Positions 1-62,323 of a DNA stretch of 64,000 nt are shown here, one piece after another. A model generated the notes under the pieces. That model worked only from the letters and a program-made list of their open reading frames with translations, was not told where the DNA came from and made no database searches. The DNA is from Polychytrium aggregatum (Eukaryota > Chytridiomycota > Chytridiomycetes > Polychytriales): assembly GCF_025602895.1 (NCBI RefSeq), contig NW_026516294.1, positions 124,001-188,000 of the forward strand, written 5' to 3'. The translations under genes and the position numbers were made by a program. Within the stretch, counting starts at the first letter, position 1; every line of letters begins with the position of its first letter.

Positions 1-1985
1 GCAACGGGGTGAAGAGCGCCGTCAGGGTCAAACTGAGAAAGGACGGCACCCAAAGCAAAGTCAGAAGCATCGGGCTCGATGACAGCGGGTTTAGAGAAAT
101 CAAAGTATCGAAGAATAGGTGCGGAAGTGAAGGAAAGTTTAAGAGAATCAAAAGCCTCTTGGGCCTCGGGAGACCAAGAGAAGGTGGAGGATTTGGTAGT
201 GAGGGAAGTCAAAGGACGAGCAAGTGCGGAAAAGTCCTTGACGAAGCGGCGGTAAAAGTTTGCGAAACCAATAAAGACTTGGATATCGCGAGCAGAAGAG
301 GGAACAGGCCAAAGGGAAACGGCCTCGACCTTGGCAGGGTCCATTTTGATGCCATCGGCAGAAATGATCATGCCGAGAAAGTCAACTTCAGAAAGGTCAA
401 AAGAACACTTGGCCGGATTGACCTTAAGGGAGTGTTCACGAAGGCGAGAGAGAACAAGCTTAACATGCTCCTCATGCTCCTGGGGATCTTTTGAGAAGAT
501 CAGGATGTCGTCAAGATAAATGACAACACAGACACCAAGGAGGTCCGAGAAGATGTCGTTCATAAAAAACTGAAAAGCAGCGGGGGCATTCGAAAGACCA
601 AAGGGGATAACATTGTACTCAAATGAGCCAGATTTGCAAACAAAAGCAGTCTTCCACTCATCGCCCTTCTTGACACGAACCAAGTGGTAAGCATCAGGAA
701 GGTCGAGGTGTGAGAAGACGCGGGCAGAAGAAAGTTTATCCAGAAGATCCTGGAAGAGGGGAAGTGGGTAACGGTTCTTCTTCGTGATGGCATTGAGGCC
801 TCGGTAGTCGACGCAAAGGCGAAGACCACCATTGGGCTTCTTCACGAAGAAGCAGGGAGCACCAACGGGAGAAGAGGATTTGGAGATCCAACCACGTGCG
901 AGGGCGTTGGTCAGATACTCCGAAAGAGCAGATTCCTCGGCCGGGGACAAAGGATAGACTTTCCCCGGCTTTGGCAAACGAGGTTCCTTTCCATCCTCGG
1001 TCCGTACAAACTCAATGGACAAGTCATACGGACGATGAGGAGGCAAGGAAGAAGGAGGGTCAGACTTGAGGCTGAAAACGTCGCCAAACTCATTGTATTT
1101 GAGTGGGACGCCTCGAGAGTCAACAGGGGTGCCAGACTCGGCATACACCTTCGTCGTGAGCACGGACCTTATCGACACCGTAGGATACGTCTCCGGCGAA
1201 GGAGGACGGATATCCATTTGGGCAGCGAAAATGTCGAGCTTGTCTTCCCGTGCAAGACGGAGAAGACTCGCCGCATTAACGAGCTCAATGTCGGGTGAAG
1301 ATAAAGCCGTTGGCTCTTCAGAAAGCGAAGCAGAGTCAAGGCGGGAAGAAAGGGAAGGCGAAGTGCCAAAGGAGGGAACCGGTGTAAGGGAAGGACCGGA
1401 GGGAGGAGGAGTCAAAGGCGAAGTGCCCGAAGGGGGAGGCGAGGAGCCGGAAGCGGACGGAGTGTCCAAGGAAGAAGCAGAGACATCCGCGAGGATGTGT
1501 CCATCAGCAAGGCAAGAGGGATCGGAGAATGAAAGGGAGAGGGACTTCCAATTAACAACTGGATTATGCAAGCGCATCCAGGGAAGACCAAGAGTGATGG
1601 GAGTGGTGGAGAGTCGAGTCACAAGAAAAGAAATCGACTCGGTGTGGGAACCAATGGTCAGAGTCAAAGGCGCGGTTTGGAAACGAATGAAACCGGCCGA
1701 AGAACCATCAGCAAGGGAAACGGAGTAAGGAGTAGAAAGAGGGATAAGAGAGAGTTTATGGAGATCGGCAAAGGCAGGATCAATGAGGGCAAGAGCGGAA
1801 CATCCATCATCAATAAAAACAGAAAGGGAGATGGAGACCGGGCCAGAAAGACTCATGACGATAAGAGTGGCCGGAAGAAGAAGCTTATCGTCCGATAGTG
1901 ACGAGTCAGAGGGGGAAGATGTTCGTATCGCCGAACAGACCACCTCGCTTACTTGCGAGGTGCTGCTCGGCTGTGAGCATTTCCC
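1..1985 (-). CDS. pol: A1 Pol polyprotein (protease, RT, start of RNase H), partial
   Basis: Minus-strand frame entered from gag by a -1 shift at 1979-1985; it runs off the left edge. It shares the sequence of A2 pol (11600-14934) and, unlike A2, stays in frame at the RNase H start near position 30. Order: short linker, aspartic protease whose catalytic motif reads IDDGC (about 1806-1820) instead of the usual D-S/T-G, then reverse transcriptase with the YLDD box near 505-519 and the FGLSNAPAAFQ-type segment, then the N-terminal RNase H. Product: Gypsy-type Pol that copies element RNA and integrates the cDNA. The DDG protease motif is shared by A2, so it is a family trait rather than a late mutation. 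I did not check every codon for stops. Confidence 0.85.
1931..1985 (-). promoter_or_regulatory. Programmed -1 frameshift signal, family A
   Basis: On the minus strand the heptamer GGGAAAT (1985-1979) lies in gag phase G_GGA_AAT. After 8 nt comes a long stem: CCGAGCAG then CACCTCGC (1970-1955), loop AAGTAA (1954-1949, holding the gag TAA), then GCGAGGTG (1948-1941), a 2-nt bulge and CTGTTCGG (1938-1931). That is 16 pairs including one G-U. Slipping back one base enters the pol frame. A2 keeps the same heptamer (14928-14934) and stem. Confidence 0.85.
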
Positions 1986-3764: not shown

Positions 3765-5877
3765 GCTGCTCCTTCTCGTGCACGGGATAGTTGATCTCGT
3801 GTTGGGACAGTTTGCGCGACTCGAAGGCAACGGGCCTTCCCTCCTGCATCAAAACAGCTCCCACCGCAAAGTCGGAGGCGTCGGTGTGCACGGAGACATC
3901 CGTGTTCGGGTCGAACACAGCGAGGACAGGAGCGTTCGTCAAGGCGTGCTTGAGGGTCTCGAACGCTTGGCGTTGTGGGTGGTCCCACACGAAGGGGCAC
4001 TCTTTGCGGAGTAGGTCTGTGAGTGGACCGGCAGTGCGCGCCAGATCGGGGATGAATCGGCGGTAGTAGTTGACGAGACCGAGAAACGACTGCACGTCAG
4101 AGACGCATGCGAGCGGCGGCCACTCGACCACAGACTTGACCTTGGCGGGGTCGACTTCGATTCCTCTTCCTGAGACAACGTGTCCCAGGAACGGGACTTG
4201 ATTCTTGAAGAACTCACACTTGGACAGTTTGGCATACAACTTGTGCTCGCGTAGCTTGGCCAGCACGCGGGCGACATGACCTTCATGGGTCGCTTCATCC
4301 TTGCTGTACACAAGGATATCATCCAGGTACACGATGACAGAGTTGTCGAGCTCTTGGCGGAACACATCGTTCATCAGCTGCATGAACGTGGCAGGTGCGT
4401 TCGTCAATCCGAACGGCAGCACTAGGAACTCGTACAGTCCGTAGCGAGTCCTGAAGGCGGTCTTGTGGACATCATCCTCGTGGATGCGGATCTGATGGTA
4501 GCCTGAGCGGAGGTCTATCTTGCTAAAGACCTTTGCTCCACTCAGACGATCCATCAACTCGTCGATCCTGGGCAACGGGTAGGTGTTCTTGATGGTCTGT
4601 TTGTTTAGTGCGCGATAGTCGACGCACATCCTGAGATCACCTTCTTTCTTCTTGACAAAGAGCACTGGTGCACCATACGGTGACTGGCTCGGGCGGATGA
4701 ACCCATGGGCGAGGAGGTCATCCAACTGGCGCTTGAGTTCGTCCATCTCCGTCAGCGACAGTTGGTACGTCGGTCTTGACGGAGGCGACGAGCCTGGTTC
4801 GATGTCGATGCGATGATCGACGGTGCGTTGGGGTGGCAGGCATTGTGGCAACTGGTCGGGGAATACGTCCTTGTACTCGTCGAGCAGCTTGGTCACCACA
4901 GGCGGGGGACCGGGACCGGCTTGGTCGGTGTCGTCGACCTCACGCACGACACAGAGGAACGACGTGTCCTTCTTGATCAGCCTCTTGAATTGCATGGCTG
5001 AGAGGAGAGGTGGCATGTTGGGTGAGGCCATGCCCTGCAGGACAATGTCAGGGCCAACACGGACAGTGCGGCCTTTCCAGTCGACGACTGGAGTCGGCTC
5101 GGCACGAGCAAGCCAGCTCATGCCGAGGATGGCATCGAACTTGGTGTCGATCACTTGGAACAACAGGACAGGATGGTACTTGGGATGGAGGGCCACTCGC
5201 AGGACCACTTGGTGTGTGCACTGCTGCACACGATCGTCTGCAAGCGCCACACTCATCGGCGACTTCTTCTTGGTTGCATGTATGTTGAGCTCCTGGAGCA
5301 AGCGTCTGCTGACAAAGTTGCAGCTTGCTCCAGAGTCCACCATCATTCGGACGGTGTGACCTTGGACGGTGGCAGGGAGGTACAGCAGGGACTCTTCATG
5401 GTCCTCCTGCACAGCCTCCTGCACCATGACTTGACTTGGGGGAACGGGCGACACTTGGTCTTGGTTGGCTTCATCACGGCCACTCGGACATTTTGGATAG
5501 GGTTCGGCCATTGCGGGGGCCTGCGGCGTCAGCACGCCATTGCACACGACGTCCACGGCTTGCGGACACATGTCGGAAGCATCCGACACACACGACTTGA
5601 CAGGGGTGAGGGCACAGGCGGTCCTGTCCCTCAAGGGTTCTTGATTTTCTTTTTTGTTTTGGTTTTCAATTTTGGTTTTCTCTTCACGTTCGTGGAGAGG
5701 CAGGCGGCTTGCGCCACCATGCACCTCTCGCACGACGCACAACACTTGGTTTGTTTCTCCTTCGGGGGAGGGGGCGAGGTGAACTTCCTCTGGAGACGCG
5801 TGGACTGCATTGAGCAATCCACGGCGTTGGTCTCCTACTAGGGCTCCAGAGCCACCTAGTAGGGTCGGCCGTTTCCC
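3765..5877 (-). CDS. pol: B1 Pol, truncated in RNase H by A1
   Basis: Pol frame entered at the GGGAAAC heptamer (5877-5871). Domains in order: a low-complexity linker with a lysine/asparagine-rich stretch, aspartic protease (VDSGASCNF), reverse transcriptase ([25 protein letters not shown]) and RNase H ([15 protein letters not shown]). The frame is lost after HEKEQ, where the A1 LTR begins; integrase and chromodomain lie beyond A1, outside the window. There is no ATG at the pol start (the first in-frame candidate is GTG), which supports synthesis as a Gag-Pol frameshift product. No stop occurs inside the visible part. Confidence 0.92.
5834..5877 (-). promoter_or_regulatory. Programmed -1 frameshift signal, B1
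   Basis: Same signal as in B2 (36545-36588): heptamer GGGAAAC (5877-5871), 7-nt spacer, then CCTACTAGG pairing with CCTAGTAGG around the gag stop. Confidence 0.88.
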
Positions 5878-10100: not shown

Positions 10101-10306
10101 GAGGAGTCGATCAAGTTGCATGAGGATCCAGAGTCAATCAAGGCAAGAGCTGGAATTGGAGTTTTGTTTTGAGAAGAAAGTGTAACAGAGATGATCAAGT
10201 TCTTTGAAGGCTTTTTTGAAATGTGTGAAACATGTGCGATAGAGGGGGTTAACAGGGTGGAGTCCAGGTTCGTCCCCTCTACAAGGCCTGGACTGGTCCT
10301 TTTGGG
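7109..10306 (-). pseudogene. pol: C1 Pol: frameshifted and truncated by B1
   Basis: Entered by -1 shift at the CCCAAAA heptamer (10306-10300). Protease (LIDSGSSCNLID), then RT ([26 protein letters not shown]). The frame breaks near 8959, where one extra base in AAG-C-ATG shifts to a second frame that carries the end of RT, RNase H ([15 protein letters not shown]), the integrase HHCC finger (ending CETCQ), the DDE core (VTMDFIV, ISDRGPQF) and the linker to the chromodomain region, where the B1 LTR cuts it. C2 has the same extra base at the same place (57141), so the lesion or shift predates the split of the two copies. Confidence 0.88.
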
Positions 10307-16650: not shown

Positions 16651-17634
16651 ATGGACCAACTCCAGGCCCAAATCGTTGCCCTCCAGGAGGAACTGGTTCT
16701 CCTCCGGACCACACACTCTTCCGCCGCCCCGCAGCTCCCCCACATGCCGACCCCGGACAAGTTCGACGGCACCAGGTCAAAGTTCCGCCCCTTCGTCAAC
16801 CAGTGCCGCCTGCTCATGATGCTCCAGGCATCCAGGTTCCCGTCCGAGCAAGTCAAGGTGGGTTACGTCTTGAGTCTGCTCACTGGTCCGGCCCTCCAGT
16901 GGGCGACTCCCTTGATCGAGTCGAACGATCAAATCCTGCACTCGTTCGACTCGTTCATGGAACGCTTTCGCCAAGCGTTTGACGATCCCGACCGCACCCA
17001 TACTGCCGAGCTGCTCCTTTCCTCCATGGCACAGGGCAACCGATCGTGCATGGACTACGCTTCCGAGTTCCTCCGCGTTGCCGCCGACCTTCCCTGGAAC
17101 GACGAAGCCAAGATATCCGCCTTCCGCCGTGGCCTGTCGAGGGAGATCAAGCAGCGTCTCTCCTTCATTGACCCTCTCCCTCTCCGCCTGGTCCCGTTCG
17201 TCGAGCGTTGCCTCAAGATCGATGCACGCATCATCGAGCTCAACAACGAGCTCCGAAACACTGGCCCTGTTTCCTTCGGCACCCAGGCCTTCAACTCCCG
17301 CACCCCGTCCTTCCAGCCGCCCGCCCAGGAGCCTCCGGTCCTCTACTCCGAGCCGATGCAGATCGACGCCGCCGTCGTCAGCCGCCTGACCCCCGAGAAG
17401 AAGAACCGCCGCTTCCAGGAGCGCCTCTGCTTCCGCTGTGGCAAGCCCGGCCACGTCGCCAAGTCCTGCCCCCTCAAGTCCGGCTCCCGTGCTCCCGCCT
17501 CTGGTTCCCGCTTCCCTGGCTCCCGTCCTCAGGCTCCCGGCTCCCGACCCCGTTCGAAGGTTGTCCGAACCATCGTCTACGATGATGGTGAGGAGGAACA
17601 CTTCGAGTCGGGAAACGACCAGGCCCAGATCTAA
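16651..17634 (+). CDS. gag: E Gag
   Basis: 327 aa, ATG at 16651 (MDQLQAQIVALQEEL), a leucine-zipper-like coiled coil over the first ~20 residues. The Ty3-type capsid core follows ([42 protein letters not shown]), then the zinc knuckle CFRCGKPGHVAKSC at about residues 260-273 and a proline/serine/arginine-rich tail. No stop occurs before the normal end. The final codons contain the frameshift heptamer, and the TAA lies within the downstream stem. Confidence 0.92.
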   Translation: MDQLQAQIVALQEELVLLRTTHSSAAPQLPHMPTPDKFDGTRSKFRPFVNQCRLLMMLQASRFPSEQVKVGYVLSLLTGPALQWATPLIESNDQILHSFDSFMERFRQAFDDPDRTHTAELLLSSMAQGNRSCMDYASEFLRVAADLPWNDEAKISAFRRGLSREIKQRLSFIDPLPLRLVPFVERCLKIDARIIELNNELRNTGPVSFGTQAFNSRTPSFQPPAQEPPVLYSEPMQIDAAVVSRLTPEKKNRRFQERLCFRCGKPGHVAKSCPLKSGSRAPASGSRFPGSRPQAPGSRPRSKVVRTIVYDDGEEEHFESGNDQAQI

Positions 17635-17652
17635 GTGGAGGTTTAGATCTGG
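17610..17652 (+). promoter_or_regulatory. Programmed -1 frameshift signal, family E
   Basis: Heptamer GGGAAAC (17610-17616) in gag phase G_GGA_AAC, 8-nt spacer, then CCAGATCTAA (17625-17634) pairing perfectly over 10 bp with TTAGATCTGG (17643-17652), loop 8 nt. The gag stop TAA forms the top of the stem. The -1 frame is open from here to the pol domains. Confidence 0.9.
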
Positions 17653-21280: not shown

Positions 21281-22258
21281 ATGGATCCTGCCCTCGTGGA
21301 CCGCCTCCGTGCCTTGGAGGCCGAGCTCGCCGAGCTCCGGACAGCTCGCGATGCTCCTGCCGCTGGGTACAGCGTGCAGATGCCGGACCGTTACGACGGT
21401 AACCGGCAAGGGTTCCGGGCATTCGTAAATCAGTGCAAACTGTATATACGAATGCAGCCCCACCGGTTCCCTGCTGACCCGATTAAGGTCGGATTCGTCA
21501 TTAGTCTGCTCACTGGACCGGCTCTCCAGTGGGCGACTCCGATGCTTGAGATGGGTGATCCCCGACTCAACTCTTTTGGCGATTTCCTAGAACGCTTTTC
21601 TAAAGTGTTTGACGACCCTGATCGGGCCAGGACTGCCGAGTCAGTGATCACCACACTGTCTCAGGGCAACCGCCCGTGCGCAGTCTATGCATCCGAGTTC
21701 CTTCGTATTGCCGCCGATACGACTTGGAACGACGGTGCAAAGATCTCGTTCTTCCGACTTGGCTTGTCGGATGATGTCAGAGACGAACTTTCGCGAGTTC
21801 GCCCTCTGCCACGAGATCTGGAGGAGTACATTGAGCTTTGTAACGAGCTCGATGCACGAATCCGCGAGCGCCGTCAAGAGCGCCGAAGCACGCCTGCCCG
21901 CTACCGGTCTTCCCAGTTCGCCTTTGGTTCCGCCTCCGCTGCCGTTCCCGCCATCGCTCCCGCGCCAGTCCTCGCTCCGCCGCACCCCTCCTACATTGTT
22001 TCCGAGCCCATGCAAGTGGACTCTGCCGTCTCTGGACCCCTGACCGCCGAGGAGAAACAACGCCGCCGCCGCTTTGGACTCTGCCTGTACTGTGGCAAGA
22101 AGGGCCACTTGGTACGAAACTGCCCCGTCAAGTTTGGATTTACCAGAGCTACCGGACCGCCCCCTGGACCTCCCGGCCCGAGGATCATCCGCACCATCGT
22201 TTACGAGGATGGAGAAGTGCAAGACTTCAGTTCGGGAAACGACCAGGCCCGGTTCTAA
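21281..22258 (+). CDS. gag: F Gag
   Basis: 325 aa, ATG at 21281 ([16 protein letters not shown]), with a short N-terminal coiled coil ([15 protein letters not shown]). The capsid core resembles E Gag ([39 protein letters not shown]). After an alanine/proline-rich spacer comes the zinc knuckle [14 protein letters not shown] at about residues 267-280. The end SSGNDQARF overlaps the frameshift site, and the TAA at 22256-22258 is the first codon of the stem loop. It is intact. Confidence 0.92.
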
Positions 22259-22276
22259 GTGAAGGCCTTGAACCGG
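22234..22276 (+). promoter_or_regulatory. Programmed -1 frameshift signal, family F
   Basis: GGGAAAC (22234-22240) in phase G_GGA_AAC, 8-nt spacer, stem CCGGTTC (22249-22255) with GAACCGG (22270-22276). The 14-nt loop starts with the gag TAA and can pair further (AAG/CTT). Confidence 0.88.
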
Positions 22277-26761: not shown

Positions 26762-27148
26762 CTGCCCAAGGCCCCCGCCGTCTGCCCAACGTTCCGATCT
26801 CTCCTGTGAGGCTCTGCCGTGAGCCTGTCTGTCTGCCCAAGGCCCCCGCCGTCTGCCCAACGCTCCGATCTCTCCTGTGAGGCTCTGCCGTGAGCCTGTC
26901 TGTCTGCCCAAGGCCCCCGCCGTCTGCCCAACGTTTCGATCTCTCCTGTGAGGCTCTGCCGTGAGCCTGTCTGTCTGCCCAAGGCCCCCGCCGTCTGCCC
27001 AACGTTCGATCTCTCCTGTGAGGCTCTGCCGTGAGCCTGTCTGTCTGCCCAAGGCCCCCGCCGTCTGCCCAACGCTCCGATCTCTCCTGTGAGGCTCTGC
27101 CGTGAGCCTGTCTGTCTGCCCAAGGCCCCCGCCGTCTGCCCGACGCCC
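26762..27148 (+). repeat. 71-bp minisatellite, five full units plus a partial
   Basis: Units start at 26762, 26833, 26904, 26975, 27045 and 27116 (periods 71, 71, 71, 70, 71); the last is partial. Each begins ctgcccaaggcccccgccg. They differ almost only at one short site (acgttccg, acgctccg, acgtttcg, acgttcg). The array fills the space between the F 3' LTR and the G gag start. No reverse-strand frame has stop codons, which explains the long spurious reverse ORFs here. Confidence 0.92.
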
Positions 27149-27178
27149 GAACTTGCTGGGGAGGCCCTGCCAGTACCC

Positions 27179-32116: not shown

Positions 32117-32419
32117 TGTGACACGATTGAGGATAATCGAGGTATAGCCGTGAGCGAGAGCTTTCTTACGATACCGATTTCATCCAGAACGGATGAGAAC
32201 TGACTGCTGTAGCACCTTGGGAAAGATTGTAGTGTATCGAGGGAGTAGTCCTGGGTTACTGTGTGTGTGTGTGTAGCTGGGGAACGGATAAGGAAATGGG
32301 GCACGCTCCTGTATGACTCTGGGCGCGTCAACGCGTCAGGCTGCTGGACATATAAGGCCGCCCCCTCGCCCTGCTCTGCTGGAGATCATCTGGAAAAATA
32401 TAGTGGCCTTGGCTACACA
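32117..32419 (+). repeat. G 3' LTR (about 303 bp)
   Basis: Follows the G-tract agggggg (purine tract, about 32109-32116). Starts TGTGACACG, ends CTACACA (TGTG/CACA ends). It holds a (tg)n run near 32260-32275 and TATAAGG at 32351. With no second copy in the window the right end is uncertain by about 2 bp. Confidence 0.72.
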
Positions 32420-32426
32420 GTTCAAG

Positions 32427-35313
32427 AAACATGGCTGAAACCTCATAGCTCAATTGGACCACTCAAGAACCTCATAGTCTTCGAGACACGCGAGCCGGAC
32501 CCAAACGGCCGCAGCCGAGGTACCGGTGGGATCGCCCTGATCCGGAACCCACGAAGAACCAACATGGAGGACTTTAGCAACTTCTATGTAGGCCCGCACC
32601 ACACCAGTATCTGGTTCAAGTTCAGAGGAATCACCTTCGGTTCATTCTACCTCAAACCACTACTCCGTGAGAAAGTCAAGGAGGGCCTGTCCATCATCAA
32701 GAGACAGACTACCCAGCAAGGCACCCCGATCCCATCTGTGATCATGGGTGACTTCAACACCAGACTCGGCCAAATGGCCAGGGACTCTCGTTTCAACGAC
32801 CGAAGACCAACCCTCCTCTCGGCCGCCACCGAGGGACTACTCACCTTCGTCGATTCGTCCAACCCTCGCGGGGACCACTGGACACACTACTGCGATGTGG
32901 AAGGGACGTCAGTAATCGACTTATTCTTCGCATCGATTGCCCTCCGACGGAAGCAAAAGACCGTCAAAGTACAAACAAACACCACCTGCAACTCGGACCA
33001 CCGACTAGTAACGATGGAGCTCGAGTGGGACGCCGAAAGGCAACCCCGACAGCCCACGATACATGTCTGGCGCACCAAGCAATTGGAATTCCCACGGGTC
33101 CACGAAGAGTACCTCGAGGCCTTCGAGCAAGTACACCCGGTAGTAATCGAGCAGCTCACCCAACTCGAACAACGATTCCCACGGCGGGAAGGACTACTCG
33201 GACCACCCGACGCCGAGACCCTCATAGAAAACGGATGGTCGATCATCAAAGGCCACATCAACTCGATTGCCAACATCGTCATCGGGAAGCGCAAGAAGTA
33301 CGGAGCCGTCCCCCCGAATGGCTTCTGGACCCCAGAGATGACCGAGATCAAGAGGCGCCGGAACGCAGCGTACCTACTCGCTTCCAGAGCGCCCCACGGC
33401 TCGAGACTACAAGTCGAAAGCGCGGCAGAGTACAATCTCCAGAACATTACCCTCCGCAAACTTGTCAAACGTCGCAAGCGAGAATTCTACAACAACTGGG
33501 CCGAATCACTTCCGACCAAGCCTGACACCGAGCTCATGAAGGAAATCAGCAAGCGTGAGAAGATCAAGAGTGGTTACTTCAACCGCTCAGTACTCCCGAA
33601 CGACGCAGAAAGCTTGGAAACCTACAGAACTCACTTCGGAAACATTTCAAGCCGACATGGGGTCCAAGAAGACCGAGTAGTCGCGCCCAGGCAACATGTC
33701 GCATTCAGTCGAGTGGGCGTGGGAGACATCACCCCCGCACAAGTACAAGAGGCCATCAAGTACACAGGAAAGCGCAAGGCCCCAGGGTCAGACGGAATCA
33801 GTGCCGAACTACTCCACCCAGTCAAGGAATGGGTTTCAGCATGGCTGAGCCGTTTTTTCAACTGGTGCATATGGACCGGCATCATTCCCAAGGAATGGAA
33901 CATCGCTGTCAACCATCCAATCTGGAAACAGAAAGGAGAGGAAGGAGACATCAAGATGTACCGCCCCATCTCACTACTACAAGTAACGAGGAAGATATTC
34001 GAAAGGATCGTTCACAGCCGCCTCCTGGAAGAAATGGGCCCCATCGACATTGCCCAGGGAGGCTTCCGACACAAACGTGGAACCCTCGACCAAGTATTCA
34101 CACTCGACGTCCTCGTCAAGAAACTCAACAACGAAGGCCACACCCCCTGGGTAGTCTTCATGGACATCAAAGCAGCCTACGACTCTGTCGACCGTGAGAT
34201 TCTCTGGCCAAAGCTAGAGCTACGGGGAGTACACATGTCCACCGTCAGAATACTCAGAACACTATTCGACAACGTCAAAACCACGGTACTCATCAGCGGA
34301 GCCCGTTCCCACACTTACTGGCTCGAAATCGGACTACTACAGGGCTCGGTCATCTCACCAACCCTGTACAGCCTTTTCGTCGACGACCTCCCCCAGAGGC
34401 TCCGGAGAATCGACTCACCAAAGATTGGCGACCTGACCATCAACAATGTCATGTACGCCGACGACATGGCACTGGTCGCGACCAATCACGACGACGCACA
34501 ACGACTACTCGACATCTGTGAGGCACATGCGGCGGAGCACAAGTACTCCTTCGCCCCGACCAAGTGTGAAGTACTCACAGCGACACCAAACCCCGAACCA
34601 CTGACTCTCGGAGGAACCGAGCTCGGCTTCGTCCGAAGTACTTTCAAGTACCTCGGAGTACAGTTCGGGGCCAAGGGAATTGACGACGAAGCACATGTCA
34701 CACACCTGAAACACCGCGCCACATTCCAAACGAAGAAATTCAGGATGTACGGCATCTTCAGCAAACAAGTACACCCCGGTGTCATCAACAAAATCTTCAA
34801 AACCTTTATCAGACCACGCCTAGAATACGGGCTGGCAATCATGAGACCCAGTGCAAGGGTAATGACTAGTCTACGTACATGTATGCTGGACAACCTCCGG
34901 GCAGCCTTCAACGTGCGAAAAACCACCTCAGGACACGCCCTCATGACGGTCACGGGGGTCTACTCCATGGCCGTGAGACGAGAAGTACTCATGATCAAGT
35001 GTTACGGCCGCTGGTTCGAAAGGATCAACGACCCTGGGTTCCTGGGCTCCCGAGTACTCAAGTACCTCCTGGAGCTCCCGGACAGGGACCGCAACAAGTC
35101 GATTCTCACACCAGTCCTGAGCAACGACTGGTGGAAAAAGGTGTCAGCACTGAAGATCCGCTTCCCGACTCGATCACGTGTTCAACTGTTCGAGAAAGCA
35201 CTACCCGGAAGTACCCCACTGAAACGAAGAATGATCACCAAATTCTTCGAGGACGGACGAGACCCCGAAAAAATCATGTCAGTAGCAGGGACGTACCGCT
35301 GGAAGGGTGACCC
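32427..35313 (+). CDS. LINE ORF2, piece 2 (endonuclease and reverse transcriptase)
   Basis: Continues piece 1 in frame with ETWLKP. Endonuclease blocks: RGTGGIALIRN, catalytic GDFNT (about residue 150 of the whole ORF2) and SDHRLV (about 232). RT: KAPGSDGI, FMDIKAAYDSVDRE (catalytic D about 621), QGSVISPTLYSLFVDDLP, and YADDMALVA with the catalytic aspartates at about 720-721. A thumb and linker region follow (HALMTVTGVY). There is no RNase H. B2 interrupts it after TYRWKGD at 35313 with the 5-bp duplication gaccc. The role is target-primed reverse transcription. All catalytic residues seen are present. The track-like open frame upstream to 32261 is LTR G sequence, not LINE. Confidence 0.92.
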
Positions 35314-35622
35314 TGTAGGAGATGGTATCTCCGACGCTGTGCTGCGCGTACTGCGCGTACTGCGCGGCGCAGTGGGTCGTGACCTGTGCTGCGCTTTGCG
35401 TTTTCACGCACCGCAGGCAGGCCACCGCAGGGTATACCTGCGGGTTGCCCCCGTTCCCCCCGTTTGTCTGGAGTTCGGTTTTATCGTGAATAAACGTAAG
35501 TGCTCCCCGAGCTCACCCGTCCGCTAGAGTAGCCTAGCACCGCCCTGTTCTGCCCCGTCCTGTCTTGTCTTGTACCCCCTCCCTCCCCGTCTTGCCCCAA
35601 CGTCCCAGTAGTGGACGTTACA
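35314..35622 (+). repeat. B2 5' LTR (309 bp)
   Basis: TGTAGGAG...ACGTTACA. Both ends carry hairpins: GGAGAT-GGT-ATCTCC at the left, AACGTCC-CAGTAGT-GGACGTT at the right. AATAAA at 35489-35494. A repeated tgcgcgtac motif lies near 35344-35365. Confidence 0.94.
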
Positions 35623-35744: not shown

Positions 35745-36566
35745 ATGAGCAACCCCCGCCCACTTCCGGAAGCCTTCCTCAAGACCTTCCGTGCCCCAGT
35801 GTTTACTGGGAAGAGCCGCTCCTCCTCGGTGGAGGACTGGCTGCAGCAACTCGAGGACTACCTCGATGCTGCCCAAGTCGCCCCCACCCACCACATCGTC
35901 GCCGCCAAGCTCTGCTTAAAGGACCAGGCGTACCGTTGGTACCGCCGCCAAGGGTTCGACGAGCAGAGCGAAGGTGTGTTTGACGACTTCAAGGACCGCC
36001 TCCGTCGCCGCTTCGGCAGCCCCAATGCTGAACTCATTGCCCGTGACAAGCTATACTCTCTCGTGCAGCGTGGTTCTGTGACCCGCTACATCGAGGAGTT
36101 TGAAGACCTCTCCTCCCAGATTGAGGAGCTGGGCTCTGCTGATGCGATGTACCTCTTCCAGAAGGGCCTCAAGCCCAAGATCAGAGAGTACATCGCCAGC
36201 AACCCTGATGCCCGCAAGTCCCTGGACGTGATGATGGACGTTGCCGAGAACCTCGACAACGTCCAGTACCATGGCCGCCAGTTCTACCCGCAGCTGGCAG
36301 GCGGCCATCGGTCTCATCACGTCCCAGCCCGTCCGCCTCGCCCGGCCCCGCCCGCAAGACCCATGCCTGAGCCCATGGACGTTGACGTCAACGCCATGGA
36401 GGCTCGTGGCCCTCCCCGCTCCCGGTTCCAGCAAGCTGCCACTGTCTCCCCCAAGGACAGACAGAAGCAGGAGGACCTCCGCCATGGTTCCTGCTTCTTC
36501 TGTCACCGACCGGGACACCAGGCCAAGGAGTGCCCCATGAAGTCGGGAAACGGCCGACCCTACTAG
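35745..36566 (+). CDS. gag: B2 Gag
   Basis: 273 aa, same sequence as B1 Gag: capsid core with KDQAYRWYR, arginine/proline-rich linker, zinc knuckle [14 protein letters not shown] (about 252-265), ending GNGRPY-stop. The TAG at 36564-36566 sits inside the 5' arm of the frameshift stem. The start ATG at 35745 follows a 120-nt leader. Confidence 0.94.
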   Translation: MSNPRPLPEAFLKTFRAPVFTGKSRSSSVEDWLQQLEDYLDAAQVAPTHHIVAAKLCLKDQAYRWYRRQGFDEQSEGVFDDFKDRLRRRFGSPNAELIARDKLYSLVQRGSVTRYIEEFEDLSSQIEELGSADAMYLFQKGLKPKIREYIASNPDARKSLDVMMDVAENLDNVQYHGRQFYPQLAGGHRSHHVPARPPRPAPPARPMPEPMDVDVNAMEARGPPRSRFQQAATVSPKDRQKQEDLRHGSCFFCHRPGHQAKECPMKSGNGRPY

Positions 36567-36588
36567 GTGGCTCTGGAGCCCTAGTAGG
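36545..36588 (+). promoter_or_regulatory. Programmed -1 frameshift signal, family B
   Basis: GGGAAAC (36545-36551) in gag phase TCG-GGA-AAC; 7-nt spacer; stem CCTACTAGG (36559-36567) with CCTAGTAGG (36580-36588), perfect over 9 bp, extended by GCT/AGC above a 2-nt bulge. The gag TAG is in the 5' arm. The -1 frame continues GKRPTLLGG into pol. Confidence 0.93.
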
Positions 36589-37736
36589 AGACCAACGCCG
36601 TGGATTGCTCAATGCAGTCCACGCGTCTCCAGAGGAAGTTCACCTCGCCCCCTCCCCCGAAGGAGAAACAAACCAAGTGTTGTGCGTCGTGCGAGAGGTG
36701 CATGGTGGCGCAAGCCGCCTGCCTCTCCACGAACGTGAAGAGAAAACCAAAATTGAAAACCAAAACAAAAAAGAAAATCAAGAACCCTTGAGGGACAGGA
36801 CCGCCTGTGCCCTCACCCCTGTCAAGTCGTGTGTGTCGGATGCTTCCGACATGTGTCCGCAAGCCGTGGACGTCGTGTGCAATGGCGTGCTGACGCCGCA
36901 GGCCCCCGCAATGGCCGAACCCTATCCAAAATGTCCGAGTGGCCGTGATGAAGCCAACCAAGACCAAGTGTCGCCCGTTCCCCCAAGTCAAGTCATGGTG
37001 CAGGAGGCTGTGCAGGAGGACCATGAAGAGTCCCTGCTGTACCTCCCTGCCACCGTCCAAGGTCACACCGTCCGAATGATGGTGGACTCTGGAGCAAGCT
37101 GCAACTTTGTCAGCAGACGCTTGCTCCAGGAGCTCAACATACATGCAACCAAGAAGAAGTCGCCGATGAGTGTGGCGCTTGCAGACGATCGTGTGCAGCA
37201 GTGCACACACCAAGTGGTCCTGCGAGTGGCCCTCCATCCCAAGTACCATCCTGTCCTGTTGTTCCAAGTGATCGACACCAAGTTCGATGCCATCCTCGGC
37301 ATGAGCTGGCTTGCTCGTGCCGAGCCGACTCCAGTCGTCGACTGGAAAGGCCGCACTGTCCGTGTTGGCCCTGACATTGTCCTGCAGGGCATGGCCTCAC
37401 CCAACATGCCACCTCTCCTCTCAGCCATGCAATTCAAGAGGCTGATCAAGAAGGACACGTCGTTCCTCTGTGTCGTGCGTGAGGTCGACGACACCGACCA
37501 AGCCGGTCCCGGTCCCCCGCCTGTGGTGACCAAGCTGCTCGACGAGTACAAGGACGTATTCCCCGACCAGTTGCCACAATGCCTGCCACCCCAACGCACC
37601 GTCGATCATCGCATCGACATCGAACCAGGCTCGTCGCCTCCGTCAAGACCGACGTACCAACTGTCGCTGACGGAGATGGACGAACTCAAGCGCCAGTTGG
37701 ATGACCTCCTCGCCCATGGGTTCATCCGCCCGAGCC
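36545..37736 (+). CDS. pol: B2 Pol, piece 1 (protease and RT start)
   Basis: From the frameshift site: linker with a lysine/asparagine-rich stretch, protease ([15 protein letters not shown]), then the N-terminal RT up to HGFIRPS, where D1 was inserted. This piece is 1192 nt and joins in frame to piece 2 at 43461 (2726 nt), giving 1305 aa without a stop. It matches B1 Pol throughout. Confidence 0.93.
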
Positions 37737-38202
37737 TGTCAGATCACGGGATCAAGAGGAGATCAAAAGAAAAAGATAGAGAAGGGTTTTATTGATCTTA
37801 GCGAGGCTAGGATCTAGAGTCAAGTGTGTCTGGGGTCGAAGGTGATGACCAGAAACATGAGCGGGTGAAGGCGGGCTATTTATCTGTCTGGCGGTCCCGG
37901 AGGCGAAGCCTGCCGCAGCGGGGGCGAAGCAGCGGAGGCGGCGGGACAGCAGCCAGGCAGCAACGGCTAACCGGAGAAACATGTGAAAGTCTGACAAATG
38001 CTCGGTGGCTGACAAATGCGGGTGACACAGCGTCTGACTAATGCATGGTCGATGACAAATGCAGGGAAAACAGAGCGGCGTGTGCAACATGAGAGCAAGG
38101 AAAAAGGAAAGGCGTCACAGGACAAAGGAAAAGGAAAGTGTGCGACGCAAACAGTGACACAAGTGCGACGGTGCAGCTAGGCGGGCAGAGCGATCTGTGA
38201 CA
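37737..38202 (-). repeat. D1 3' LTR (466 bp)
   Basis: Minus strand TGTCACAG...CTGACA. TATA-like GATAAATAG at 37884-37876, AATAAA at 37793-37788. Identical in length to the 5' LTR. The purine tract CTGGGGGGGA directly precedes it (38212-38203). Confidence 0.95.
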
Positions 38203-41200: not shown

Positions 41201-41974
41201 GAGTTCGTTGAAGGCATCGCGGTACTTTGCGATGATGGATCGGTGTTCGGGGGTCAGTGGTTCGAGGACACGGGCAAGTTGGGCAACGGGGTCGTAGGGT
41301 TCAACAGCAACTGTATTCAAGTCACTGCTCAGAGTACAAACATACACGGCGCCGGGAGTCGAAGCCAGTGCGTTGATCTGCTGGGTCGACATGTGGTACT
41401 GGGATCGGAGTTCGAGGGTCGTGAGTGGCATTCCGGTGTCGGGTCGCGATGCCGTCCAAGTGTGGTGCTTCCCGTCGATCGAGAACTTGATTCGGTTGGA
41501 GGGCCAGTCGATCTCGGGGTTGGTCTGGTCGAGCCAGTTCTTGCCGAGGATAACGTCCCAGGTGAGTGGCGCGGTGAAGAGGTTGATGCGGGCGTGGTAG
41601 TCGTGGATGGTGAGGTCGACGGGATCGGTGACGGAGGACGGGAAGGACTTGCCGTTGGGCATCGTGACGGCGTTGGCGGTGGTCTTGGTTCGAAGGTCGA
41701 GGGTCGAGGCGAGGGTCTCGGAGATGTGCGAGTTGGTCGCACCAGGGTCGATGAGGACGGTGATCGGGGAGCCGTTGAGGGTGGCGTCGATCACAAGCAG
41801 TCCCTTGCCGTGGTTGGCGGCAATGCGGTGGGGTTCGTCGATGAGAGAGTTGATCAGGTGAGGTCCGGTGGCGAGAGTCAATAGTTCAGCGTCGGGGGTC
41901 GGAGTCGGATGGCGGCAACTCGCCGGGTCCTTCAGAGGTCGTAGTATCCAGGGGTTGCCGCCTCGTCGTTTCCC
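38237..41974 (-). CDS. pol: D1 Pol (protease, RT, RNase H, integrase, chromodomain-like)
   Basis: 1245 aa from heptamer GGGAAAC (41974-41968). Protease motif LIDPGATNSHI, with D-P-G in place of D-S/T-G, followed by a VILGKNWL flap region. RT FSKLDLQRGFHQIRI and VYIDDILIAS; RNase H (FTDWSESSASIGGWI, a diverged form of the DAS-type motif); integrase finger (HPGTNTLYKAI...CDICQRAK); DDE core (VALDFILGLP, ISDHDTRF, HHEAAGQVERF); C-terminal chromodomain-like segment (FEAIIGHRINRRRR...FLLRWQGYDPSYDSWAP). The frame is open throughout, and D2 encodes the same protein. Confidence 0.94.
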   Translation of the reverse strand, partial: GKRRGGNPWILRPLKDPASCRHPTPTPDAELLTLATGPHLINSLIDEPHRIAANHGKGLLVIDATLNGSPITVLIDPGATNSHISETLASTLDLRTKTTANAVTMPNGKSFPSSVTDPVDLTIHDYHARINLFTAPLTWDVILGKNWLDQTNPEIDWPSNRIKFSIDGKHHTWTASRPDTGMPLTTLELRSQYHMSTQQINALASTPGAVYVCTLSSDLNTVAVEPYDPVAQLARVLEPLTPEHRSIIAKYRDAFNELKELPPHRPGIDMNIRLDDSAKPTWSSLYQMSAEELARLKDELDRLLRIGHIRKSVSPFGAPIFWVKQGDKFRLVFDFRALNKITVKDRTALPNMREIIDRLSKCRVFSKLDLQRGFHQIRIADADTPKTAFRTKYGHFEWLVMPFGLANSPSVFQAAMNDIFREFIDDFVFVYIDDILIASEDEDQHIRHIELVLDKIHRHGFKIRPEKCSFFNSTVTYLGFIIGEGRIQVHPSRIDAIKNYPRPTTEHELRSFLGLTNTIMSFVPGYAALAGPLSTLITTRSANSTKSVVWDDNAIAAFEQLKLLSPQSLHMVNPDKDIHLFTDWSESSASIGGWIGQDMDGSGTVRPIAFNSQKLHGSELNYSPYNGELLSITRHLDKFKNYLVGRKVFLHTDQKALKHILDSKTLNKRQQRAIDTMLDFDLEIQWIPGSWNKVADVLSRTPTAISKAVQVSIINAIVNLGPSPDDLLDTIRTQYSSDPILSALISVLRDNSTDGLKPWMKAQLHRFSLRHGILYFDSTRICIPGKDLRISIIKDHHDSVCAAHPGTNTLYKAISTHYYWPAMSKDIAEWVSHCDICQRAKIRRQQAYGHFSRIPVATRKMDTVALDFILGLPPVTDSLSGRTFNSITIFVDSLTKYVVLVPGNKTDSAEDVARQYFRDVFVHFGLAGTFISDHDTRFRSAFWTGLNTLLKTELRIAFAHHHEAAGQVERFVATVAEAIRCSTLALGSRWIDQVPYIQFALNSHSSASTGHSPFFLMHGQHPRTPANTDIIAESNPAAQSIEEMQATLDLVSDNIGKAQDRALYYANRHRRDISYDIGDQVLIDTTAYHFSTDDVTPSKMRMPYLGPFKIIEKIGTTGYRLRLPRTLRFTTELPASALVPYNTPSTDQLVFDEPGPNHNDESVFEAIIGHRINRRRRLPGYRHEFLLRWQGYDPSYDSWAPLAELLDGGLADIHDFLSRNRNLPEMDTLIDLCQAQVQRNSGSKN
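41911..41974 (-). promoter_or_regulatory. Programmed -1 frameshift signal, family D
   Basis: Minus strand GGGAAAC (41974-41968) in phase CAG-GGA-AAC, 5-nt spacer, stem GGCGGCAAC (41962-41954) with GTTGCCGCC (41919-41911), perfect over 9 bp. The 34-nt loop contains the gag stop (41934-41932). Present also in D2 (heptamer 50433-50439), D3 (62317-62323) and the fragment near 54320. Confidence 0.9.
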
Positions 41975-42990
41975 TGATCTTCGTAGAAGGTGGCCTGGTC
42001 GGCGGTCTCGACGATGGCGTTGATGCGGGGCTGGTTCAAGGGACACTGCGAGGCGATGTGGCCGAACTTGCGGCAGCGGAAGCAGCCTCCGTTACGGCGG
42101 AGGTACTCCTTCTCGCGGTCGGTGAGCTTCTTGATCGGGCGCATGTCGACGTTGTCGAGGTCCATGGCGTTGGGGTCACGTGCGGGAGGCTGGGTCGGCT
42201 GGAAGGCGGGACGAGGAGGACGGACCATTGGGCGGAACTGCGGCTGACCAGGTGGAGCGCGGAAGAGAGGAGGTCGCTGGAACTGGAGCTCGCGGAAGGG
42301 TTGATCGCGGAACTGAGTGCGAGCGGGCTGCTGCATCAGGGGTTGCGATTGACCCATAATGGACTCGTATCGCTCGGCGAGGGCCATGGCATCTTCGAGG
42401 GTGGCTGTGTTGGAGTCAAGCTTCCATTCGACTTCGATGCGCACCCTGTGCTTGAGCTTGGTGAGGTAGCGCTGCAGGTTCTGGCGGTTGTTGCTGAAGT
42501 GGGGCAGCTCGAGGAGGAGATCGCGGAAGCGAGAGTTGAACTGCTCGACGGAGCCGGTGTGGCGCAGTGCTTCGAACTCATCCTCGGTGGTGCGCAGCGA
42601 GGTGGACGGAAGGAAGGTGTCGCGGACGAGGGACAGGACGGCGGCCGGGGTCAGGTTGTCGAGTTGCTTGCCCTGGGACCAGAGGCGCCACCAGGTCTTG
42701 GCCTTGCCCTTGAGGTTCATGGCGACGGTGGCGACAGCGGTGGCGTCATCGAGACTGTGGAAGGCAATGTACTCGGTCATTGAGAAGACAAACTCGTCAA
42801 CGACAGCAGCCTTACGCTCGCCAGTGAAGGCGTCGGGGAGCGGGATCTTGGGACGCTTGAAACCGGGAGGGACCGTGGGGAGATTCGGCTGGGCAGTCAG
42901 GGCGGAGAGGACCAGGGCGCGGTCCTCGAGCGATAGTTGTTCAAGGGCCTGGAGACAGGCATTGACGGCGGGATCGTCCGATGCTACCAT
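41932..42990 (-). CDS. gag: D1 Gag, start codon built across the LTR/primer-site junction
   Basis: 352 aa. The ATG is the last LTR base plus the first two bases of the primer site (42990-42988), and the primer site encodes VASD. An in-frame TGA lies three codons upstream and the next ATG is about 70 codons downstream, past part of the capsid region, so this start is well supported. Capsid core: PDAFTGERKAAVVDEFVF; LKGKAKTWWRLW; SVEQFNSRFRDLL. Zinc knuckle CFRCRKFGHIASQC at about 301-314. A glutamine/proline/arginine-rich spacer precedes it. Confidence 0.92.
   Translation of the reverse strand: MVASDDPAVNACLQALEQLSLEDRALVLSALTAQPNLPTVPPGFKRPKIPLPDAFTGERKAAVVDEFVFSMTEYIAFHSLDDATAVATVAMNLKGKAKTWWRLWSQGKQLDNLTPAAVLSLVRDTFLPSTSLRTTEDEFEALRHTGSVEQFNSRFRDLLLELPHFSNNRQNLQRYLTKLKHRVRIEVEWKLDSNTATLEDAMALAERYESIMGQSQPLMQQPARTQFRDQPFRELQFQRPPLFRAPPGQPQFRPMVRPPRPAFQPTQPPARDPNAMDLDNVDMRPIKKLTDREKEYLRRNGGCFRCRKFGHIASQCPLNQPRINAIVETADQATFYEDQGNDEAATPGYYDL
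42978..42989 (-). other. tRNA-type primer binding site, family D
   Basis: TGGTAGCATCGG on the minus strand, abutting the LTR and lying inside the gag reading frame. Same 12 bases as in family B. Confidence 0.72.
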
Positions 42991-43455
42991 GTCAGATCAC
43001 GGGATCAAGAGGAGATCAAAAGAAAAAGATAGAGAAGGGTTTTATTGATCTTAGCGAGGCTAGGATCTAGAGTCAAGTGTGTCTGGGGTCGAAGGTGATG
43101 ACCAGAAACATGAGCGGGTGAAGGCGGGCTATTTATCTGTCTGGCGGTCCCGGAGGCGAAGCCTGCCGCAGCGGGGGCGAAGCAGCGGAGGCGGCGGGAC
43201 AGCAGCCAGGCAGCAACGGCTAACCGGAGAAACATGTGAAAGTCTGACAAATGCTCGGTGGCTGACAAATGCGGGTGACACAGCGTCTGACTAATGCATG
43301 GTCGATGACAAATGCAGGGAAAACAGAGCGGCGTGTGCAACATGAGAGCAAGGAAAAAGGAAAGGCGTCACAGGACAAAGGAAAAGGAAAGTGTGCGACG
43401 CAAACAGTGACACAAGTGCGACGGTGCAGCTAGGCGGGCAGAGCGATCTGTGACA
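42990..43455 (-). repeat. D1 5' LTR (466 bp)
   Basis: Same sequence as the 3' LTR by inspection. Right flank gagcc completes the target duplication. Confidence 0.95.
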
Positions 43456-49700: not shown

Positions 49701-50439
49701 TGGATCGGTGTTCGGGGGTCAGTGGTTCGAGGACACGGGCAAGTTGGGCAACGGGGTCGTAGGGTTCAACAGCAACTGTATTCAAGTCACTGCTCAGAGT
49801 ACAAACATACACGGCGCCGGGAGTCGAAGCCAGTGCGTTGATCTGCTGGGTCGACATGTGGTACTGGGATCGGAGTTCGAGGGTCGTGAGTGGCATTCCG
49901 GTGTCGGGTCGCGATGCCGTCCAAGTGTGGTGCTTCCCGTCGATCGAGAACTTGATTCGGTTGGAGGGCCAGTCGATCTCGGGGTTGGTCTGGTCGAGCC
50001 AGTTCTTGCCGAGGATAACGTCCCAGGTGAGTGGCGCGGTGAAGAGGTTGATGCGGGCGTGGTAGTCGTGGATGGTGAGGTCGACGGGATCGGTGACGGA
50101 GGACGGGAAGGACTTGCCGTTGGGCATCGTGACGGCGTTGGCGGTGGTCTTGGTTCGAAGGTCGAGGGTCGAGGCGAGGGTCTCGGAGATGTGCGAGTTG
50201 GTCGCACCAGGGTCGATGAGGACGGTGATCGGGGAGCCGTTGAGGGTGGCGTCGATCACAAGCAGTCCCTTGCCGTGGTTGGCGGCAATGCGGTGGGGTT
50301 CGTCGATGAGAGAGTTGATCAGGTGAGGTCCGGTGGCGAGAGTCAATAGTTCAGCGTCGGGGGTCGGAGTCGGATGGCGGCAACTCGCCGGGTCCTTCAG
50401 AGGTCGTAGTATCCAGGGGTTGCCGCCTCGTCGTTTCCC
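46702..50439 (-). CDS. pol: D2 Pol
   Basis: Same 1245-aa product as D1 Pol: protease with DPG, RT with YIDD, RNase H, integrase and chromodomain-like C-terminus. Entered by -1 shift at heptamer 50439-50433. No difference from D1 was noticed in the encoded protein. Confidence 0.94.
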   Translation of the reverse strand, partial: GKRRGGNPWILRPLKDPASCRHPTPTPDAELLTLATGPHLINSLIDEPHRIAANHGKGLLVIDATLNGSPITVLIDPGATNSHISETLASTLDLRTKTTANAVTMPNGKSFPSSVTDPVDLTIHDYHARINLFTAPLTWDVILGKNWLDQTNPEIDWPSNRIKFSIDGKHHTWTASRPDTGMPLTTLELRSQYHMSTQQINALASTPGAVYVCTLSSDLNTVAVEPYDPVAQLARVLEPLTPEHRSIIAKYRDAFNELKELPPHRPGIDMNIRLDDSAKPTWSSLYQMSAEELARLKDELDRLLRIGHIRKSVSPFGAPIFWVKQGDKFRLVFDFRALNKITVKDRTALPNMREIIDRLSKCRVFSKLDLQRGFHQIRIADADTPKTAFRTKYGHFEWLVMPFGLANSPSVFQAAMNDIFREFIDDFVFVYIDDILIASEDEDQHIRHIELVLDKIHRHGFKIRPEKCSFFNSTVTYLGFIIGEGRIQVHPSRIDAIKNYPRPTTEHELRSFLGLTNTIMSFVPGYAALAGPLSTLITTRSANSTKSVVWDDNAIAAFEQLKLLSPQSLHMVNPDKDIHLFTDWSESSASIGGWIGQDMDGSGTVRPIAFNSQKLHGSELNYSPYNGELLSITRHLDKFKNYLVGRKVFLHTDQKALKHILDSKTLNKRQQRAIDTMLDFDLEIQWIPGSWNKVADVLSRTPTAISKAVQVSIINAIVNLGPSPDDLLDTIRTQYSSDPILSALISVLRDNSTDGLKPWMKAQLHRFSLRHGILYFDSTRICIPGKDLRISIIKDHHDSVCAAHPGTNTLYKAISTHYYWPAMSKDIAEWVSHCDICQRAKIRRQQAYGHFSRIPVATRKMDTVALDFILGLPPVTDSLSGRTFNSITIFVDSLTKYVVLVPGNKTDSAEDVARQYFRDVFVHFGLAGTFISDHDTRFRSAFWTGLNTLLKTELRIAFAHHHEAAGQVERFVATVAEAIRCSTLALGSRWIDQVPYIQFALNSHSSASTGHSPFFLMHGQHPRTPANTDIIAESNPAAQSIEEMQATLDLVSDNIGKAQDRALYYANRHRRDISYDIGDQVLIDTTAYHFSTDDVTPSKMRMPYLGPFKIIEKIGTTGYRLRLPRTLRFTTELPASALVPYNTPSTDQLVFDEPGPNHNDESVFEAIIGHRINRRRRLPGYRHEFLLRWQGYDPSYDSWAPLAELLDGGLADIHDFLSRNRNLPEMDTLIDLCQAQVQRNSGSKN

Positions 50440-54238: not shown

Positions 54239-54403
54239 CCACATCGCCTCGCAGTGTCCCTTGAACTAGCCCCGCATCAACGCCATCGTCGAGACCGCCG
54301 ACCAGGCCACCTTCTACGAAGATCAGGGAAACGACGAGGCGGCAACCCCTGAATCCTACGACCTCTGAAGGACCCGGTGAGTTGCCGCCATCCGACTCCG
54401 ACT
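54239..54403 (+). pseudogene. Family D gag/pol fragment, plus strand
   Basis: Matches the D Gag C-terminus from the zinc knuckle on (ASQCPLN, then RINAIVETADQATF...) and the first bases of pol. It includes GGGAAAC and the GTTGCCGCC arm. A CAG-to-TAG change makes a stop early in the fragment. Orientation is opposite to D1-D3. Bounded by A3 on the left and a D LTR fragment on the right. Confidence 0.88.
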
Positions 54404-54888: not shown

Positions 54889-55821
54889 ATGGACGACGTC
54901 GCCCACCCTGCCATTGAACAGATCGCTGCACTCACTGCTCAATGCCAACAGCAACAACAAGCAATTCAGCAGCTCCAGGCTCAACTCCAGCAACAAATGC
55001 AAGTGCTCCAGCAGCAGCAACAACTCCAACAATTTCAGCAACCCAGGGCCGAACAACCTCATGCCCATGCCAGGGAACCAAAGGTCCCCGATCCGGAAAG
55101 ATTCCACGGCTATGCCAAAGAAATCAAGAACTTCATGTCCAATGTTGAGAACCTTATCGCCCTACAACCATCCAGATTTCCGACAGAGCAGATCAAGGTA
55201 CGATATGTCGGAACCCTCCTCGCAGACCAAGCCCTGTCGTGGTTCCGTACTCTCCCCGGGCTTCCAGACTCCCTCAACGACCTCTGGTCAGCCATGACAG
55301 CCACATTTGGCGACCCGCATGCCATCTGGACAGCCAGGACAAGACTCAAGACCCTCAAACAAGGCCGCCAATCTTGTGTGAGCTACACGACGCGCTTCAA
55401 GCAACTCGCACTGGAAGCGGACTACAACGATGGAGCTCTCTTTCAGTATTACTATGACGGACTTTCTGAGACCATCAAGGATGTCCTGTCGCAGACTCTC
55501 GACGTCCCGGAATCCCTTGACAGATTCCAAATCCTCTGTATTCAACTCGATAACAGACAATTCTCTCGCAGGTTGGAACGATCGATCAATGGTCGTAACG
55601 AGTTCACGGCAAGGACTCCATTCACACCATCGCCTGAACACCCTCGAGGGGACGCGATGCAAATTGACTCCGTACAAGTCCTCCCTCGCAGCCCCCTCAC
55701 CAAGATCGAGAAGGATAGAAGAATGAAGCTTGGTCTCTGTCTCTATTGTGGAGAGCCGGGGCACATTGCCAAGGAATGCCCTAAGAAACAGTCCCCAAAA
55801 GGACCAGTCCAGGCCTTGTAG
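54889..55821 (+). CDS. gag: C2 Gag
   Basis: 310 aa. ATG at 54889, only five bases after the self-primer site. Glutamine-rich coiled coil (about 15-50), capsid core (LADQALSWFRTL), zinc knuckle CLYCGEPGHIAKEC (about 285-298), stop TAG at 55819-55821 within the frameshift stem-loop. Intact. Confidence 0.92.
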   Translation: MDDVAHPAIEQIAALTAQCQQQQQAIQQLQAQLQQQMQVLQQQQQLQQFQQPRAEQPHAHAREPKVPDPERFHGYAKEIKNFMSNVENLIALQPSRFPTEQIKVRYVGTLLADQALSWFRTLPGLPDSLNDLWSAMTATFGDPHAIWTARTRLKTLKQGRQSCVSYTTRFKQLALEADYNDGALFQYYYDGLSETIKDVLSQTLDVPESLDRFQILCIQLDNRQFSRRLERSINGRNEFTARTPFTPSPEHPRGDAMQIDSVQVLPRSPLTKIEKDRRMKLGLCLYCGEPGHIAKECPKKQSPKGPVQAL

Positions 55822-55839
55822 AGGGGACGAACCTGGACT
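55794..55839 (+). promoter_or_regulatory. Programmed -1 frameshift signal, family C
   Basis: CCCAAAA (55794-55800) in gag phase TCC-CCA-AAA, 5-nt spacer, stem AGTCCAGG (55806-55813) with CCTGGACT (55832-55839), perfect over 8 bp. The gag TAG is in the 18-nt loop. The -1 frame is open into pol. C1 has the same (heptamer 10306-10300). Confidence 0.88.
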
Positions 55840-62200: not shown

Positions 62201-62323
62201 GATCAGGTGAGGTCCGGTGGCGAGAGTCAATAGTTCAGCGTCGGGGGTCGGAGTCGGATGGCGGCAACTCACCGGGTCCTTCAGAGGTCGTAGGATCCAG
62301 GGGTTGCCGCCTCGTCGTTTCCC
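59265..62323 (-). pseudogene. pol: D3 Pol lacking its C-terminus
   Basis: From heptamer GGGAAAC (62323-62317): protease with LIDPGATNSHI, RT with YIDDILIAS, RNase H, integrase finger and DDE core, all in frame. It then reads through the deletion junction into the LTR and stops inside it (59087). The integrase C-terminal domain and chromodomain-like end are missing. Several substitutions relative to D1 (for example DDFVFVY context E-Y for E-F). Confidence 0.9.

Follow-up and report, generated by a model that had tools for sequence, protein, structure and literature searches.

The window, that is, the whole stretch of 64,000 nucleotides analysed here, corresponds to positions 124001-188000 of a contig in a 64.7-Mb, 418-contig genome, whose fungal nature is indicated by eleven Fungal_trans matches. 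It holds six Gypsy families (A-F) with two ORFs each, and the ORFs scanned against Pfam contained gag, protease, reverse transcriptase (RT), RNase H and integrase domains, protease and/or RT being detected in the -1 ORF of each of A-E. A seventh Gypsy family, G, was present as a single ORF of 1,683 aa (27035-32086), and a 71-nt tandem repeat (26724-27216) lies just before this frame and extends into it. A chromodomain was detected by Pfam in D and in G, and was not found in the C ORF at 57121-58899. The window also carries a LINE-like ORF with endonuclease and reverse transcriptase domains (32249-35527) and two D copies with identical 466-nt LTRs (37737-38202, 42990-43455, 46202-46667 and 51455-51920), a sign of very recent insertion. 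A segment of 164 nt (54239-54402), an orphan D fragment adjoining a C copy, matches the D gag/pol overlap at 98% identity and includes both a GGGAAAC (54326) and the complete stem.

The preliminary description had assigned to each two-ORF family a pol in the -1 frame, an in-phase slippery heptamer, a short spacer and a stem, and all of these were confirmed when the overlaps were re-read (Table 1). In all six families the heptamer stood in the X_XXY_YYZ phase of gag with the downstream ORF in -1, the -1 frame was open far past the gag stop, and a spacer of 5-8 nt (the canonical criterion is about 5-9 nt) preceded the stem, S1. The gag stop was located 27 (A), 12 (B), 18 (C), 33 (D), 15 (E) and 15 nt (F) past the heptamer end, within the 5' arm of S1 in B and E and within its loop in A, C, D and F.

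Table 1. Modules at the gag/pol overlaps and proposed second stems (S2); positions are those of the window.
Feature	Position	Strand	Details
B heptamer	36545..36551	+	GGGAAAC, gag phase G_GGA_AAC; direct reading
B S1	36559-36567 / 36580-36588	+	9 bp; gag stop TAG 36564-36566 in 5' arm
B proposed S2	36571-36578 with 36627-36634	+	CTCTGGAG with CTCCAGAG; inferred from complementarity by reading
B hairpin between S2 arms	36600-36622	+	9 pairs
B second copy	5788..5877	-	heptamer 5877-5871; S1 5863-5855 with 5842-5834
B second copy, proposed S2	5851-5844 with 5795-5788	-	
C	55794..55839	+	heptamer CCCAAAA 55794-55800; S1 55806-55813 with 55832-55839
C proposed S2	55818-55826 with 55853-55861	+	9 pairs; L3 13 nt; shuffle p 0.015
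C second copy, same module	10239..10306	-	heptamer 10306-10300
D	41911..41974	-	heptamer GGGAAAC 41974-41968; S1 41962-41954 with 41919-41911, enclosing a 34-nt loop
D second copy of module	50376..50439	-	
D third copy of module	62260..62323	-	loop is the sole difference from the first
E	17610..17652	+	heptamer GGGAAAC 17610-17616; S1 17625-17634 with 17643-17652, 10 bp, extendable by GGC/GCC with a bulge
E proposed S2	17636-17641 with 17667-17672	+	TGGAGG with CCTCCA; shuffle p 0.068
F	22234..22276	+	heptamer GGGAAAC 22234-22240; S1 22249-22255 with 22270-22276, 7 bp
F proposed S2	22261-22266 with 22290-22295	+	GAAGGC with GCCTTC; shuffle p 0.022
A	1931..1985	-	heptamer GGGAAAT 1985-1979; hairpin 1970-1931, 16 pairs and a bulge

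Across twelve window ORFs, totalling 7,510 codon positions, only 14 in-phase X_XXY_YYZ heptamers were found, and six of these were the modules, one per family. With the rate taken from the other eight, 0.012-0.146 heptamers per overlap were expected by chance, the product over the six families being 3e-9, which is too strong a figure given the homology of E and F. In-phase heptamers are rare and some overlaps have little length (34 nt in C, 40 nt in E), so that one is unexpected there by chance. GGGAAAC as such was not enriched in the window (13 found vs. 11.1 expected); what matters is its phase and place, not its bare frequency. The only in-phase heptamers of the single-ORF family G were AAACCCG and GGGGGGT, as would be predicted for a signal confined to places of frame change. 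Compared to 6,000 random window positions, S1 alone was individually modest in A-F (p 0.005-0.06). In most families p against random window positions ranged from 0.001 to 0.06, and S1 was absent or weak in the loci L129, L083, L102 and L133 (p 0.08-0.57).

Relatives of the modules elsewhere in the genome

A gag profile search of the genome, in which 150 of 1,163 candidates were scored, provided 20 regions downstream of gag matches. Ten of them had an in-phase heptamer followed by a -1 frame open to the region end, and corresponded to two families, H and I, with GGGTTTT, to a family J with GGGAAAC (GGGAAAA in L081), and to F. Among the same 20 regions, no usable module was found in L073, L075, L076, L079, L084, L085 and L086; L075, considered as a +1 family, was rejected, as its three-frame reading looks like a decayed H/I relative. 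The remaining L074, L078 and L082 carried the H/I stem with GGATTTT replacing GGGTTTT, and kept all nine S1 pairs, one of them as G-U in L078. This heptamer was in gag phase in L074, and the stems of L078 and L082 were not in the gag frame as read; GGATTTT may be either a functional variant or a product of decay.

Relatives of C were sought in 20 regions taken from among 117 listed matches, and 17 of them had CCCAAAA or CCCAAAC followed by the stop at a distance of 18 nt, several being identical copies. The -1 frame was open to the region end in 15 of these 17, with earlier closure in L101 and L107. The C module was not found in L099, L102 and L104, and L102 had an in-phase GGGTTTT with a weak stem. 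Eight more regions picked from an RNase H match list yielded one H copy and three copies (L150, L152 and L155) that look like two further Gypsy families, M and N, whereas L151, L154, L156 and L157 were not gag/pol junctions. In the M/N copies the apparent slip site was G_GAA_AAC, with Pol in the -1 frame; the stem has 7 bp, and its 5' arm includes the gag stop, TAG. Both this site and that of L074 (G_GAT_TTT) deviate from X_XXY_YYZ at the P site; passages of a review name G_GA as a P-site exception in some viruses, and G_GGA_AAC and G_GGU_UUU among the most shifty sites (PMC5009743). Finally, among ten additional regions, L133 and L134 had a heptamer without S1 (the latter judged by eye) and L137 was an A-like copy diverging past the heptamer. 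In near-identical copies the module was stable: all 30 B loci had it, as did 29 of the 30 E loci, the latter in two variants.

Covariation of the stem and a possible second stem

Aligning further copies for compensatory changes in the stems, as had been proposed, gave a positive result with the J and C relatives, ten modules of which align without gaps over 46 nt, and smaller samples were available from E/F and H/I. S1 pairing was preserved in 91% of the cells of the ten J/C relatives, compared to 20-42% after displacing the arms by one to three columns. Both sides had changed in five of the ten pairs (14 cells), and the covariation score was 0.424 vs. at most 0.092 in the slid alignments, although two of the five measures (the pair types and the number of pairs with both sides altered) were not above shuffles. 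Between E and F, two S1 pairs were changed on both sides and two were broken in F; between H and I, one pair was changed on both sides and no measure was clearly beyond shuffles. Covariation thus places the gag/pol overlaps under selection for RNA structure, bearing out the earlier claim. That the stems differ entirely in sequence was in turn wrong for E and F, which have the same spacer and 14 of 20 S1 positions in common.

Copies of A, B and D were discarded as a covariation sample. Those scored (113 of 1,671 candidates for A, 40 of 370 for B and 107 of 1,521 for D) were 99-100% identical, and in 11 D copies fetched as divergent the loop and flanks differed with S1 unchanged; being near-identical or unchanged in S1, these copies are uninformative.

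In the C, E/F and H/I lineages, the loop of S1 was complementary to a stretch 8-16 nt downstream, with which it could form a second stem, S2. The loop and downstream strands were GTAGAGGGG/CCCCTCTAT in C, GGGGCC/GGCCCC in its relative C2, TGGGCC/GGCCCA in C3, GGGCC/GGCCC in C4, TCAGGAG/CTCCTGA in H and CAGGAG/CTCCTG in I. S2 was assayed by shuffling the downstream bases, with L3 limited to 5-17 nt and with S1 fixed by comparison, which superseded an earlier mechanical setting of S1. In addition to the values in Table 1 for C, E and F, p was 0.064 for C2, 0.035 for C3, 0.165 for C4, 0.002 for H, 0.010 for I and 0.015 for L074, whereas B, D and four J members gave 0.67-0.99 with such a short L3. 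Fisher combination over B, C, C2, D, F, H and J gave 0.0013, A being omitted on account of its 6-nt loop; when L3 was allowed to reach 70 nt, the combination over B, C, D, F, H and J gave 0.008. These values are flattering, because the idea was post hoc, the seven families include two C relatives, and F was chosen over E. The combinations over favourable families only (4e-5 and 8e-7) were not relied on.

These matches suggest, with somewhat better than even probability, that the stem of C, E/F and H/I is stem 1 of an H-type pseudoknot, for which the dimensions proposed are 7-10 bp for S1, 5-9 bp for S2 and 8-16 nt for L3. It is also quite possible, if less probable, that the stimulator is a plain stem-loop giving the same frameshifting, and that S2 is a chance pairing of G-rich loops with the C/T-rich pol linker. 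S2-like matches were indeed common at random window positions having a stem, the hairpin of A needs no S2, and B, D and J are without one at short L3. Moreover, two of the three M/N copies, which were fetched after the pseudoknot idea arose, can form a 6-bp S2 (L3 of 15 and 18 nt), but none of the three was above shuffles. Against chance pairing stand the p values of 0.002-0.035 reached by C, C3, F, H and I at a similar geometry, and the comparison of E and F, in which one of six S2 pairs was changed on both sides (another was broken in F). Thus, the stem-loop put forward as stimulator in the preliminary description is real in its S1, which covaries, and is probably incomplete in C, E/F and H/I, where the S2 matches point to the pseudoknot.

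Outside these lineages, B may perhaps fit a larger, three-stem pseudoknot, in which an L3 of 38 nt would surround the 9-pair hairpin of Table 1; its S2 had p 0.037 with L3 up to 70 nt and 0.67 with 5-17 nt. A putative S2 of J, 54-67 nt away, is a hint only. No convincing S2 was found in A and D, neither of which fits a version of the pseudoknot.

Descent and priming of the families

An RT tree was built internally, with no named references, from 14 of 17 rows; C2 and C4 were dropped because no recognisable RT was found in their stretches, and J_L081 because it was partial. The 14 rows were 37-86% identical, with identity between lineages falling to 37-68%. The modules of J and C, of E and F, and of H and I are homologous, those of J and C having the stop at the same columns of their gap-free alignment, and GGGAAACGAC is common to D, E, F and several J copies. 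Shared descent probably accounts for much of the uniformity of the modules: the stems drifted by compensatory change and the slippery sites changed, while much of the likeness was inherited. Independent acquisition by the families, the uniformity then being convergence, would fit the low RT identity between lineages and the variation of heptamers, stop positions and S1 layouts among A, B, C/J, D, E/F and H/I. We nevertheless consider convergence unlikely in view of the three homologous pairs, of the distribution of GGGAAACGAC, and of the -1 frameshifting reported in the available text on the wider Tf1/sushi group (PMC10085805). For the same reasons of homology and precedent, to describe the uniformity across families as striking was an overstatement.

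The families had also been divided into self-primed and tRNA-primed ones, and this held for the two examined by the LTR test: F has a self-primer of 11 nt immediately following the LTR (0 of 1,000 shuffles), and no self-primer was found in D. The module therefore crosses priming types, as far as these two families are concerned.

Routes from gag to pol and known frameshift signals

From the frames, the phase of the heptamers and S1 as read directly, each module is very probably a programmed -1 ribosomal frameshift signal, slippage itself, its efficiency and the pseudoknot being what we infer from the sequence. A ribosome near the end of gag would meet the slippery heptamer with a fold of the RNA, hard to unwind, lying 5-8 nt downstream; a minority would slip back one base and pass the gag stop, producing Gag-Pol, and the remaining ribosomes would terminate 3-33 nt later, producing Gag. 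The folded RNA would probably be the H-type pseudoknot in C, E/F and H/I, perhaps the three-stem one in B, and a long bulged hairpin in A. Access to pol by splicing, internal initiation or stop readthrough, with incidental heptamers, is very improbable: pol-frame ATGs were found less than 100 nt from the heptamer only in J_L081 (-30), J_L083 (+39/+90) and C3 (-24/+27), and the 0 frame stays open more than 160 nt past the gag stop in H, J_L077, J_L081 and C4, but no GTRNGY/YAG pair restored the frame within the scanned range in any of the 15 contexts, in 11 of them the 0 frame was closed by a second stop no more than 102 nt past that of gag, and readthrough alone cannot reach a pol that lies in the -1 frame.

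The gag stop had been placed in the stem-loop or at its edge, which is the case in A-F, whereas in H and I it lies in the spacer before the stem. Since it is found from 3 nt (H, I) to 33 nt (D) past the heptamer, in some families ahead of the 5' arm of S1 and in others inside it or past it, the proposal that a stop in the stem couples termination to slippage finds no support.

As judged from the parts of the sources available to us, several known systems resemble these modules. Tf1/sushi Ty3/gypsy elements of fungi and vertebrates likewise have gag and pol in two frames, -1 frameshifting being predominant outside fission yeasts, and are self-primed, as in F and unlike D, which has no self-primer (PMC10085805, 2023); the available text of that paper does not contain the words slippery, heptamer or pseudoknot. 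PEG10 also has GGGAAAC in X_XXY_YYZ phase, a 5-nt spacer, a 3' pseudoknot and a -1 shift into a protease-bearing frame, but it is a domesticated mammalian host gene derived from Ty3/gypsy with a 61-nt overlap, and the pseudoknots are likened by description (PMC2800197, PMC10570562). The betaretroviral gag-pro signals of MPMV, SRV-1 and JSRV share GGGAAAC; their tabulated row of 7, 6, 6, 1 and 11-12, taken as spacer, S1, S2 and loops, gives an S1 of 6 bp compared to 7-10 bp here, and L1 is longer in C, F, H and I (PMC3835772). The Verticillium elements VdLTRE2-4 are fungal Gypsy elements with pol in the -1 frame, although no RNA structure is described in the text available (PMC3441728), and Sireviruses have a conserved stem with covariant nucleotides at the gag/pol junction, but are plant elements with pol in the +1 frame (PMC5009743). 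Our literature search recognised no description of pseudoknots at fungal Gypsy gag/pol junctions, by which we do not claim their absence from print.

Given -1 frameshifting in Tf1/sushi, the -1 pol of Verticillium and the GGGAAAC with pseudoknot of PEG10, the mechanism is known; what is new are further members, the covariation, and a better, though unproven, structural model, in which the single stem-loop is replaced in three lineages by a testable pseudoknot. It may tentatively be proposed that a pseudoknot signal kept its architecture across several Ty3/gypsy lineages of one genome while stems and slippery sites turned over. The slippery sites found comprise GGGAAAC, GGGAAAT, GGGAAAA, GGGTTTT, CCCAAAA and CCCAAAC, with G_GAA_AAC and G_GAU_UUU off consensus. 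If the proposal is true, they would form part of a natural series with heptamer and stimulator varying independently, to which B would add a three-stem version, and would supply naturally occurring variants with which to study the matching of slippery site to stimulator; the E/F, H/I and J members already carry compensatory differences.
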